Notes under the pieces: model-generated
Seen by the model: only the letters and a program-made list of their open reading frames with translations
Databases searched by the model: none
Told to the model about the DNA's origin: nothing
Made by a program: the position numbers and the translations under genes
Part shown: positions 57,323 to 62,658 of the stretch, piece after piece
How the letters are laid out: the number at the start of each line of letters is the position of its first letter
Numbering within the stretch: the first letter of the stretch is position 1
Assembly (NCBI GenBank): GCA_000320605.2
Contig: KB445798.1
Span: forward strand, 40,156-104,155
Source of the DNA: Gelatoporia subvermispora B
Lineage: Eukaryota > Basidiomycota > Agaricomycetes > Polyporales > Gelatoporiaceae
Direction of reading: 5' to 3'
DNA: 64,000 nt

Positions 57323-57640
57323 TTAGGATTGTTGCCAGATGCCAGTCCCGTTGACAGAGGCGTTGACACGGATCGCGGTGTCGAGACTACCGCTGACGGT
57401 GACGGCGTCATCCAACGTGACCTTGATCTGGTTGCGTCCGATGAGGCCCTGGAAGGTGCAGGTGCCGGTCAGGTCATCCGTGGTGTCGTACGTGAGGGTG
57501 GCGGCGCCGGATTTGAACATAGGCATACTGTTGGAGAGGTTGAAGGTGAAAGTATTGGTGCGCCCATCGATCTCCCAGGTGCCGATGACACGAGAGTTGG
57601 CGTCGATCTCGCGGACAACGGTGCCTTCAACAGAGGGCAT
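57323..57640 (-). CDS. Small conserved protein A (105 aa), paralogue of the microexon-array gene
   Basis: A single coding exon, ATG 57640 to TAA 57323-57325, 105 residues. I do not recognise the family. The sequence is soluble, without signal peptide or membrane segment, with short alternating hydrophobic strands (GTWEIDGRTNTFTFNLSNS; SGAATLTYDTTDDLTGTCTF; VTLDDAVTVSGSL), suggesting a small beta-sandwich or barrel. It aligns over its last 101 residues with the C-terminal domain of the gene at 59389-61032 (69 of 101 identical by hand count, no gaps). A probable 5' UTR intron lies at 57649-57718, eight bases upstream of the ATG. The TATA box is at about 57790-57797. The divergent partner has a matching promoter, so the two may be co-regulated. 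Confidence 0.8.
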   Translation of the reverse strand: MPSVEGTVVREIDANSRVIGTWEIDGRTNTFTFNLSNSMPMFKSGAATLTYDTTDDLTGTCTFQGLIGRNQIKVTLDDAVTVSGSLDTAIRVNASVNGTGIWQQS

Positions 57641-59388
57641 TGCGGAAGCTGGGAGGGCCCGGTGAGTGGATTCCTCGGGGGTGGAGTGGAGTGGAAAGTG
57701 GCACCTACAAGTATATACCTGGGTTGAAAAGTGCTAGACAAGCGCAATGGTAAGTGCGAAACTGGTGATAATTCCAGATACGCATCCAGCTTATATACCT
57801 GTCGTTTACTTTCCAGGGAGCTTGATCCCGACATGTATCGGGATGAGCTTCTGCCCGGCGTGACGAGGTCGGGATCGCTTTGCTCCCAGAGTGGCGAAGT
57901 CGGGATGAGTAGTTTCCCGGCGATCGAAGTGGTGCAAGATCTTCTGCGAGGCATCGAAGGTCTCGAGCTCCGCGATCTCCGGAGGGCGGGAATCGTCAAC
58001 ACCAGGATGAATAGGATGCGGAAGGCTAGGGCTAGGTTCGACGACGTCTTTGACATCTTCCGAGAAGCACTCACGGGATGGCATTATTGCCGCGGTCAGG
58101 AGACTCTGATACCGCCGGTAGGATTGACTCGCTCACGGCCAATGTCTAGCACGGGGGATCTATATGCACACTCAAGTCTCGTGGACGATTAGCCAAGCAT
58201 GGCTTCATTAATGCTCTCGCAGCCCAACGCCGCTTCACCTTCTCAATCGCCAAAATATGTAAGATGTCGCATGCGAATGTTGTATGTTCGTGCTTTATAA
58301 GCTGAGTTCTACCTTGTAGCTGCAACTCGTGACACTTTATCATGGAAAGTCAGATCTTTCAACCCGCACTGGCATTCTCTACCTGAACACATTCGTTGAA
58401 GGTGTAACCCAAGTCTGGACAGTGAACGATGGTGTTGCAGCACGCAGAGATCACCGTGGCGAATGCTCCTGATTACGTGAGCGTTGGTTCACACTGGACG
58501 CCCATCTAACCTCACGGGATGTCTGGGGGTGTGTTCCCGAGGTGGACACTAGATCTCCCCGGACCTCGGCAGCTGATCAGCCCGATGACGGGTGATAAGC
58601 TTTGCAAGAAAGATGATGTCCACAGAAGCCCACGATGGACTACAGATACCAAATACAACAACAGCCCTCCGGTAAACGACATTCGGAATTAAGGCGGTCC
58701 GAGATGACGTGGAAGCCTGAGCTACGCCAGGCTCAGCCTACTATATGAGTCAAGTTATTTCAAACAGGCTACAGCTTCTATGAATGTCTGAACATGCTCG
58801 TACGACATCGAGGATCTTGTGTCGCCACAGCCACTCACCGTCAAGTTTAATTCGAGTTGTACTACTCCTCGCATTTCATCACCCATCCAAATTGTGAGAA
58901 TCACGTACACTCGTAGACATAGGTAAATCATACTACATTAGCCCCAGAGCACGGACAATACTACTCAGTGCAAGAACGGGCACCATCAACACGAGTGCAG
59001 ATCTATGCCTTGTTTGACACGGCTCGAACGACACCTGATCTCGATCGCGAAGGTCAAGCAGCTTCTATAATCGACGGAAGATCTTACGTTGGCACTCCGG
59101 ACTCGGTACCCGGAACACAACTCATTCCGACTTCTCCACCCCGGCAACACAGCAATCCCGACCTCGTCACACAACGGACATCAACTCATCCCGACACGGA
59201 TGAGGATCGACCTCCATGGAAAGCAGACGGCCTACAGGTATATAATTTGGATGAATCTTTGCAGTGCTCCCCGGTTTAGCGCTTCCTTCGCACTCTTACA
59301 ACTCCCAACTCAAACTTCACGACAGGTGAGGATCGTCATGCTGGTCTCCATGACAAACGCCCCCCTGACAGCACTCCGAGCTCTCGAC
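57641..59388. promoter_or_regulatory. Divergent regulatory region between the two paralogous small genes
   Basis: The two ends are inverted copies. Both carry a CAGGTATATAA TATA segment (gene A about 57790-57801 on the minus strand; gene B 59236-59245 on the plus strand). Both carry upstream TCCCGAC sites and an identical 16-bp block ATCCCGACCTCGTCAC (59155-59170; reverse complement at 57860-57875). Gene A's side also has the interrupted palindrome ATCCCGA-N6-TCGGGAT (57825-57844) and GTCGGGA at 57899-57905; gene B's side has TCCCGAC at 59189-59195 and a TTCCGAC variant near 59125. The middle (about 58200-58900) is featureless. The repeated motif looks like an operator for a shared regulator; that is inference. 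Confidence 0.6.
59239..59245 (+). promoter_or_regulatory. TATA box of the microexon-array gene
   Basis: TATATAA, within a segment shared with the promoter of the divergent paralogue (CAGGTATATAA). A leader exon ending at 59325 is followed by a 55-bp intron (59326-59380, GTGAGG...CCGAG) before the exon holding the start codon. Confidence 0.55.
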
Positions 59389-60657
59389 ATGATCCCTTGC
59401 ATGATCAGTAAGTACTACTGCCGTGTCCGCTCTCCACTGCAAAAGCAGCTCACTCACGACTTTCTCAGCTCCCGCAGCGCCGCCTTGCAAAGCTCGTGAG
59501 TATCACCCTCCATTCCCTCTCTGCCACACTGGTGACTGAAGCAGTTCACTCACGACACTCTCAACTCCCACAGCGCCGCCTTGCATGGCTCGTGAGTAAC
59601 ACCCCTTCTCTGCTCTCTCCCATGCTAAGGCAGCCCTTTCACGACGCTCTCAACTCCCGCAGCGCCGCCGTGCAAGGCCCGTGAGTACCACCCCCCATTC
59701 CCTCTCTGCCACATTGAAGCAGTCCACTCACGACACTCTCAACTCCCACAGCGCCGCCTTGCATGACTCGTGAGTATTACCCCTCCTCTGCTCTCTACCA
59801 CACTAAGACAGCCCGCTCATGACACTCTTAATCCCTGCAGCGCGGCCTTGCCCGGCCCGTGAGTATCATCACCTCATTCTATATCTCGCAAAGGCAGCCC
59901 ACTCAAAGCGCCATGACTCTCAGCACCCCCGATACCGGTATCTTGCCCGCCCCGTGAGTATGGCCGTGTCATAACCTTCCCTACAACGGCAGCCGATTAA
60001 TAGCACTCTGAGACAGCTCCCCCAAATATTTGCCCGCCCCGTGAGTATGATTCATTAGAACGTCTTCTACAACAGCAGCTTACTCATAGCACCGCAACTC
60101 TCAGCACCCACGGTACTCCCGTCTTGCCCGCCCCGTGCGTACAATCGTGCCCCAATTTTCCCTACAACGGCAGCCGACTAATAGCAATCTCAGCACCCCC
60201 GGTGCTTCCGTCTTGCCCGCCTCGTGCGTATAATCGTGCCATAACCTCTCCTACCATCGCAGCCGACTGATAGCACTCTCAGCTTCTCCAAAGCCTTGCC
60301 CACCCCGTGAGTTTGATCGCGTCATGATGTCTTCGACACCAGCAGCTTATACATAGCACCGCAACTCTCAGCACCCCCGGTACTGACGCCTTGCCCGCCC
60401 CGTGAGTATAATTGTGTTATAACCCCTCCTACAACCGCAGCCGACTGATAGCAATCGCAGCTGGCAACGTTAAGCCGTGCCCGCCCCGTGAGTGCAACCG
60501 TATCATTATTCTTCTTAAAACCGCAGGTCACTCATGGCATTCTCAGCTCCCACAAAGCCTGGCGATGACTGTGAGTATCAGTACCTCACTCTTTCGCCCT
60601 ACAATAGCAGCCCGCTCATAGCAATCTCAGCTGGCAAAGATAAGCCTTGTACGAACC
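59381..60657 (+). repeat. Tandem exon-intron repeat, period about 80-95 bp, about 15 units
   Basis: Each unit holds a branch-site-like CTCAC, CTGAT or CTAAT, a CTCTCAG or CNCAG acceptor, a C-rich core containing CTTGC (usually CTTGCCCGCCCC or CGCCGCCTTGCA) and the donor GTGAGTA or GTGCGTA. Two sub-families are visible: the first five internal units share CGCCGCCTTGCA cores and 71-78 bp spacers, while later units share CTTGCCCGCCCC cores and 58-65 bp spacers. The duplicated unit is exon plus intron, so the array grew by unequal exchange of whole exon-intron modules. Confidence 0.85.
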
Positions 60658-61032
60658 GTAGGTATCATATTGTATCATCTGTCCACTACGAAAAGCGCGC
60701 TCACAGCACTCACAGCGTGCTCTAAGACAGGCACGATCGTTCGCGACAAGAATTCAAACTCCCGCGCCATCGGCACCTGGGAGATCGACGGGCGCACTTA
60801 CACGTTTACCTTCAACCTCTCCAACAGTGTGCCCAAGTTCACAGCCAGCTCCGCCACTCTCACCTACTGTGACACGGACGACTTGACCGGAACCCGTAGC
60901 TTCCGCGGCCTCATTGGACGCAAGCAGACCAACTTCAAGTTGGATGACAACGTCACCATAAGCGGTGATCTCGACTTACCGATCAGTGTCAACGCCTCGG
61001 TCAACGGGACTGGTGTCTGGCAGTCGTCTTAG
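59389..61032 (+). CDS. Microexon-array gene: Pro/Cys repeat encoded by 14 tandem microexons plus a conserved C-terminal domain
   Basis: Sixteen coding exons: 59389-59407 (ATG), 59469-59495, 59574-59591, 59663-59680, 59752-59769, 59841-59858, 59924-59953, 60017-60040, 60105-60134, 60194-60223, 60283-60306, 60372-60401, 60461-60487, 60547-60570, 60631-60657 and 60716-61032. Total 681 nt, 226 residues. The 14 internal exons measure 27,18,18,18,18,30,24,30,30,24,30,27,24,27 nt, all multiples of three. All 15 introns (58-78 bp) are phase 1, mostly GTGAGTA...CTCAG. The resulting peptide is a repeat with one Cys per unit, for example PPPCMA, PPPNICPP, PPPVLPSCPP, PSPKPCPP, PGNVKPCPP. The last exon encodes the domain shared with the 105-residue paralogue. 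Only this phase is open throughout: the other two meet stops in the exons at 59752 and 60461. There is no signal peptide. I do not recognise the family. The Pro/Cys tract could be a disulfide-capable or metal-binding flexible arm (inference). Confidence 0.8.
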
Positions 61033-61447: not shown

Positions 61448-62658
61448 GATCAGCCCCAGTCAAAAGCCGCAAAATTTAAATCGAGTTGTAAGTAGTCAAA
61501 TCTAGTACAGACCCATACAACAAGTCAAATCGAGTGAAAACGAGCCAAATCGAATACAGCTGTCAAAAGCTCCCACGGCGTGACCAGACTGATCGCGTCA
61601 TCGGGCGCTTACGTGAGCATAACGCGCAAAGTGCGCACAGTGCAGTGCACAGAGTGCGCAAAGTGTGCATTTTGCACAGTGCACAGTGCACAAAGTGCGC
61701 ACTTTGTGCAGCGCAGAGTTCGCGCTTTGCACACTTTGCACACGTGCGCTGCGCTATATGCACACCTGCAGGTCGCGAGGGATTATGTTAGCACTGCTCT
61801 TCATCTCGTTCTGGCGATGACCTCATAGTCTCATACGCCGATTCCCTCCCTGTCCTGGTCGCCACTTAAAAGCAGGGTCTGTCTCGTCGTCGACTCTATC
61901 GTTCTTTCCCTCTTGCCTTTGACCCACTCAACTCATCCACAATAGCACTGATGCTTCTTCATTCTAGCCAGTCCCCGGATGCTTCTCTGTATACAGTAGA
62001 GCGTGAGTGATCCTCACCACCTTTGCTTGCTGTTCTCACGCAAAGTGACTAGGCCTTACGCAGCGTACGCAAATTTTCCCCGGTATAACTAGAGCTCGTA
62101 CTCAAGTGCTGCAGATGCTGGGTATGCATATACACCTCATGTTACAGACTGCTAACTGATCAATGACGTACTAGGAAGGCGAGTGGTCGGAAGCTAAGCA
62201 AGGGTACGAGAGGGAGATACAAGGGCGGTGGACTGAAGCCTAGGGCAGATGAGCGGTGGGTGGGCTTGCCATGGGCGGCAGATGGGCTCGCGACGGGCGG
62301 TGGGCACTACTATGTAGCGAGCAGCGGGGGCGGGCTCGAGGACGGGATAATCACGTGTAAAGTCGGATGAGAACGAATAGAACGAGTTAATTCTAGCCAA
62401 ATCGAGTCAGATCGAGTGCAGCGAGCACTACATGAGTATCATGAGCAGAGCATTGGACAATTGGAATTTACTCGACTGGAGTTAGATAGTACTCGATTCA
62501 TTAGATGGTACTCGAAAGTACTAGATTTGACTAGGTAACTATCTATTTAAATTGAGTATAGTCCCGCGAGAGACGAATTAAATCTATTATGTCAAATAAC
62601 TAGATCTGACTAGGTCTAACTCGATTTAAATTTTGCGGCTTTTGACTGGGGATCAGCA
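61448..62658. mobile_element. Non-autonomous DNA transposon, 33-bp perfect TIRs, 7-bp target duplication
   Basis: 61455-61487 and 62619-62651 are perfect 33-bp inverted repeats (outer ends CCCAGTCAAAAGCCGC and GCGGCTTTTGACTGGG). They are bounded by the direct repeat GATCAGC at 61448-61454 and 62652-62658, a clean target-site duplication. The subterminal regions carry many TCAAATCGAG/CTCGATT-type motifs in both orientations, as in transposase-binding subterminal repeats. The 1.2-kb interior has no transposase frame; instead it contains a GTGCACA/AAAGTGCGCA-rich block (61620-61750). The intact ends and target duplication suggest fairly recent insertion. The superfamily is not certain: 7 bp is unusual, near the 8 bp of hAT. 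Confidence 0.85.
61620..61755. repeat. Dense palindromic GTGCGCA/TGCACA repeat inside the transposon
   Basis: Short units of the type AAAGTGCGCA, GTGCACA and TTTGCACA recur in both orientations. A perfect 24-bp palindrome sits at 61687-61710 (centre GTGCGCAC, arms TGCACAAA). The alternating purine-pyrimidine TGCACA runs could extrude hairpins or cruciforms. Confidence 0.7.

Follow-up and report, generated by a model that had tools for sequence, protein, structure and literature searches.

What kind of gene places fourteen exons of only 18-30 nt each ahead of a single conserved domain? This question is raised by a locus within a 64,000-nt stretch of DNA (the window), on contig C8, from the white-rot polypore Gelatoporia (Ceriporiopsis) subvermispora B. 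An earlier note on this DNA had proposed a symmetric, phase-1, skippable array of microexons encoding a Pro/Cys repeat, and this reading survives, although its chance estimate, the uniformity of its donors, its gene start and the nature of its domain have all been corrected. The best explanation, to which we give a probability of roughly three in four on the evidence of the sequence, is that this is a protein-coding gene, the N-terminal coding part of which arose as a single exon-intron module was duplicated in tandem. The features on which this explanation draws are as follows.

59239..59245, + strand: TATA box (TATATAA), promoter of the array gene, in TATA columns common to five aligned family members
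59262..59325, + strand: non-coding first exon, containing no ATG, with a predicted 5' end
59326..59371, + strand: leader intron, 46 nt, with a GT donor column common to four paralogs
59372..59407, + strand: ATG exon E0, 36 nt, ATG at 59389, MIPCMI; no ATG precedes it in the predicted mRNA
59478..59495, + strand: microexon 1, TPPCKA, 18 nt
59574..59591, + strand: microexon 2, PPPCMA, 18 nt
59663..59680, + strand: microexon 3, PPPCKA, 18 nt
59752..59769, + strand: microexon 4, PPPCMT, 18 nt
59841..59858, + strand: microexon 5, PRPCPA, 18 nt
59924..59953, + strand: microexon 6, PPPIPVSCPP, 30 nt
60017..60040, + strand: microexon 7, PPPNICPP, 24 nt
60105..60134, + strand: microexon 8, PPTVLPSCPP, 30 nt
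60194..60223, + strand: microexon 9, PPPVLPSCPP, 30 nt
60283..60306, + strand: microexon 10, PSPKPCPP, 24 nt
60372..60401, + strand: microexon 11, PPPVLTPCPP, 30 nt
60461..60487, + strand: microexon 12, PGNVKPCPP, 27 nt
60534..60536, + strand: start codon implied by the deposited model CERSUDRAFT_95523 (126 aa, P0002); falls in predicted intron 60488-60546
60547..60570, + strand: microexon 13, PPTKPGDD (without Cys), 24 nt
60631..60657, + strand: microexon 14, SGKDKPCTN, 27 nt; its residues are present in the deposited protein P0002
60716..61032, + strand: terminal exon, with the predicted Vap-like beta-barrel domain and a TAG stop

Rebuilding the gene from its sequence gives successive microexons of 18, 18, 18, 18, 18, 30, 24, 30, 30, 24, 30, 27, 24 and 27 nt, with lengths divisible by three, and phase 1, in all 14. 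The internal exons share a single phase, beginning at codon position 2, and since all 14 microexons are symmetric and in frame, any of them could be skipped without loss of frame, with 16384 subsets preserving it. When joined, they are open in one of the three frames, the remaining two containing 2 and 3 stops, and a single Cys is found, as had been claimed, in 13 of the 14; microexon 13 has none. The acceptors also match their original description (CAG in 14/14), whereas the donors are less uniform than was stated, being GTGAGT in 11 of 14, GTGCGT in two and GTAGGT in one. Every one of the 15 introns between coding exons is 58-78 nt long and has, at 13-26 nt from its acceptor, a YTNAH resembling a branch point; in 12 of them this is CTNAY. 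Microexon 1 additionally has a second in-frame acceptor (CTCAG) 9 nt upstream, at 59469-59478, at which position copies 2-5 have CTCAA or CTTAA. Directly 3' of the gene, positions 61624-61702 consist of a tandem repeat of a 32-nt unit (GCGCAAAGTGCGCACAGTG...) in 2.5 copies.

Chance was rejected as the origin of this chain of splice sites, both on 500 dinucleotide shuffles and on 307 tiles covering the window. Chains of donors, linked with 50-85 nt allowed per intron and 12-36 nt per exon, reached a length of 15 at the array, as against no more than three in the shuffles and no more than two in the tiles, which overlapped and came from both strands, the + strand tiles covering the array being left out. 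The probability of (1/3)^14 previously attached to the exon lengths is nevertheless not a valid one, and makes the argument too strong, because the units are tandem duplicates with inherited exon lengths, and are not independent. The array has tandem periods of 89, 178 and 267 nt, its successive donors are spaced 83-96 nt apart, and neighbouring exons are recognisably homologous along with their introns, as in tandem exon duplication. Length classes offer a fairer comparison: the exons have four, each a multiple of three, and the 15 introns have nine, in which every residue is represented. A dispersed repeat was considered and rejected, as a two-unit piece matched this locus only (5/5 among the best candidates scored). 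The whole array region had one array-type match elsewhere among the best candidates scored, at a gene on contig C21. The donor-end pattern TTGCCCGCCCCGTGAGT, with up to two mismatches, gave 14 matches (eight in the array, one in the C21 gene and five elsewhere), compared with six in the reversed control. A GTGAGT microexon-chain pattern gave 140 matches, compared with 74 in its reversed control, and by eye no other chain among the matches listed, which run into contig C14, linked more than two GTGAGT donors, compared with nine linked at the array.

The TATA promoter at 59239 would start a transcript whose first exon is non-coding; splicing would then remove sixteen short introns (the leader intron and fifteen others), and translation from the first AUG in the resulting message, at 59389, would produce a protein of 223 aa. 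That first AUG opens the frame of the domain. The proposal that an ATG exon joins the conserved C-terminal domain in the same phase holds, although the start of the gene is corrected to ATG 59389. Were the leader intron retained, ATG 59338 would open the same frame as ATG 59389, while ATG 59251 lies 6 nt past the TATA box, ahead of the predicted transcription start.

The origin of the array can be approached through relatives in the same genome, where the C-terminal domain is found in at least 20 places, 18 of them at E<=0.001. The family of Vap-like barrel genes comprises about 20 such places (L006-L025), several of them on contigs C8, C11 and C21, and further relatives are P0016-P0019, from ena/jgi sources. 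One paralog is a neighbour, in the opposite orientation, starting ~1.6 kb from the TATA box of the array gene.

57323..57640, - strand: neighbouring paralog, coding region free of microexons, 105 aa, with a domain identity of 69%

The 5' layout was aligned for five of the 20 places (the array gene, L007, L008, L014 and L017), and judged by eye for the remaining 15. All five agree in the position of their TATA box, first exon and first donor, therefore placing the array between promoter and domain, inside the transcription unit. Translation of L007 and L017 begins, by this layout, in the domain exon. In L008 and L014, both on contig C21, the domain exon is preceded by an ATG exon of 36 nt and a single phase-1 exon, of 87 and 30 nt respectively, which join it in frame. 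The ATG exons of L008 and L014 both find their best match, out of the array gene's 15 short exons, in microexon 13 (scores of 66 and 52, with the next best at 51 and 35), which has AAG where those exons have ATG. The second coding exons of these paralogs have no clear counterpart in the array, one aligning best to microexon 11 (38) and the other almost equally to microexon 13 (45) and microexon 1 (44). We infer from these alignments that the ancestral gene may have begun with an ATG exon of the L008 and L014 type; duplication would have added exon modules on its upstream side, and the start would have shifted to 59389. In L008 (L005 2770-3260, on the minus strand of C21), the second coding exon contains an internal tandem repeat of APAM-type units, a different route to lengthening the same N-terminal part.

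No array was seen by eye in the other family loci. On a tree of 22 rows, with long rows and weak support, no single branch sets apart the three genes that have coding microexons (3 changes); hence their microexons may have arisen once and been lost elsewhere, or may have arisen repeatedly. No tail was seen in five records from other species (Obba rivulosa P0012, P0013, P0015 and P0020, and Chaetomium P0014), the search having reached only proteins of limited length, and a single-sequence search for longer homologues with an N-terminal extension returned the deposited record alone.

The joined message is predicted to encode a 123-residue tail and a 100-residue domain, and the fusion of a Pro/Cys repeat to a conserved C-terminal domain is borne out by the sequence. 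The tail is 46% Pro, with 15 Cys, 12 of the 14 intervals between which span 6-10 residues, and is probably disordered. The domain is conserved, as the earlier note had it, but its nature is corrected to a predicted Vap-like barrel: the model (pLDDT 96.7) has eight antiparallel strands with a short helix in the middle, as in the Vap proteins of Rhodococcus equi. Alignment A1 covered 16 of the 20 places, leaving out the partial matches L015, L017, L018 and L025, and both G95 and W97 are invariant across its 16 members, matching the Gly-rich stretch followed by Trp at the C-terminus of Vap. The Vap profile PF05526 (R_equi_Vir) was absent among the Pfam matches of these 16 members at E<=1; its whole-genome search (0/1) carries little weight, as its 14 controls gave no signal either. 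There was no convincing Pfam or NCBIfam family for the domain, one member touching PF09046 (E 0.0027), and no sequence relatives among solved structures. In the 223-aa form, from ATG 59389, the best 12-residue hydropathy mean near the start is 0.85, and the protein is predicted to be intracellular. As a guess, the tail might act as a flexible multivalent arm on the barrel, in which polyproline with regularly spaced thiols could serve protein binding, metal binding or disulfide linking.

Other readings of the locus differ in how much of this they accept. The deposited annotation, CERSUDRAFT_95523, implies the last two introns, in agreement with the best explanation, but begins downstream of most of the array, such that translation would start at 60534 and the array would be non-coding leader or upstream DNA. 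That start is in frame, and array exons and introns diverge at similar rates; however, position 60534 is intronic in the array reading and in L008 and L014, falling within the intron 3' end common to these two paralogs, the promoter shared with the paralogs sits ~1.3 kb upstream, and the domain frame is already opened by the earliest AUG in the spliced message. Hence this short model is the least likely reading. A spliced and coding, yet functionally neutral, array has a better claim, and is a real possibility, if one short of an even chance: a minisatellite-like expansion of a unit that happens to hold an exon, tolerated since it stays in frame. This overlaps the best explanation in structure, and differs from it in function only. 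It would account for the tandem periods, for the lack of an array seen by eye at other family loci, and for the alike divergence of exons and introns, as exon conservation above that of introns was not found between copies (mean identities of 0.74 and 0.77), meaning that the tail sequence shows no sign of purifying selection. Nor is stop-freeness more than weak proof of coding, given that all exons remained stop-free in 47-67% of neutral simulations. Against neutrality, divisibility by three has been kept in exon lengths and not in intron lengths, and Cys has been kept in 13/14 units. The latter is a weak objection, as the neutral model stayed free of stops and kept 13 or more Cys in 2-20% of its runs at divergences of 0.08-0.15, and in 2-6% at 0.12-0.15, the observed mean being 0.13.

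The array might instead generate isoforms in the manner of the micro-exon genes (MEGs) of Schistosoma, with microexons skipped in varied combinations to produce many proteins differing in the number of Pro/Cys units, and the symmetry of all 14 microexons would permit this. Exons of 18-30 nt are difficult to define across the exon, which favours skipping, whereas in fungi short introns with good signals favour intron definition and constitutive splicing. As all the introns are 58-78 nt with good signals, splicing of the array is probably constitutive, and extensive skipping seems unlikely. A broader version of the idea is also doubtful, if marginally less so: a fungal single-gene diversity generator, MEG-like through independent origin and with 14 interchangeable microexons, could vary the number of Cys-Pro units on its Vap-like barrel by skipping within the cell and by unequal recombination within the population. 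Under the best explanation, tandem duplication of a coding module, unit number could change without breaking the frame, because each repeat is a whole symmetric exon; from one generation to the next such changes would come about through unequal recombination, and within a generation possibly through skipping of exons.

The closest architectures, in the available portions of the published descriptions, are those of MEGs and of the bicycle genes of aphids. MEGs have many short exons, mostly multiples of three, with introns of 100 to almost 5000 bp and secreted products (PMC10526429). Hence the likeness to MEGs previously drawn covers the length of the exons and their divisibility, and fails for the introns, which are 58-78 nt in the array gene, and the latter also differs in its recognisable tandem exon copies and in having no evident signal peptide in its 223-aa form. 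Bicycle genes, a family of insect gall effectors, have many small internal exons, almost all beginning at codon position 2 (PMC9168663), the same phase as in the array gene, although they encode a different protein, for which the portions available do not mention a Pro/Cys repeat. Tandem exon duplication, as far as the source describes it, is linked to the mutually exclusive choice of one copy (PMC9013439), whereas the 14 copies here appear to be includable together. Microexons are reported from white-rot P450 genes (PMC1184071), and a functional one from Trichoderma Xlr2 (PMC11121469), but an array of symmetric copies is not mentioned in the available text on either. The SP7-like effectors of Rhizophagus are a small fungal gene family of secreted proteins with imperfect repeats, and one conserved intron ahead of the first (PMC11333574); they share repeats with the array gene, and exons per repeat are not stated in the text available. 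Among proteins, the descriptions available for Rhodococcus equi Vap, an eight-stranded barrel with a short mid helix and variable N-terminal part (PMC10903876), ending in a Gly-rich stretch and then Trp (PMC4118825), correspond to the predicted barrel, helix and terminus of the array protein, which is unlike Vap in lacking a Vap profile match, in being fungal and in its microexon-encoded tail. No fungal microexon array was found among the matches listed from the open-access literature on microexons, exon duplication and fungi. The same literature yielded no transcriptome paper covering the array gene, and the deposited locus names appear in no open-access paper.

If spliced as read, this gene encodes a repeat protein with a separate exon for each repeat. 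A plausible earlier stage is represented by paralogs elsewhere in the genome, with an ATG exon and one phase-1 exon, making the birth of a microexon array traceable. With numerous 18-nt exons set among 60-nt introns, the array puts the fungal spliceosome to the test, and with it the question of whether fungi gain isoform diversity by skipping exons. It also illustrates how automatic annotation can lose such a gene, the deposited protein having 126 aa against a predicted 223. Finally, it adds to fungal biology a gene family with a predicted Vap-like fold.
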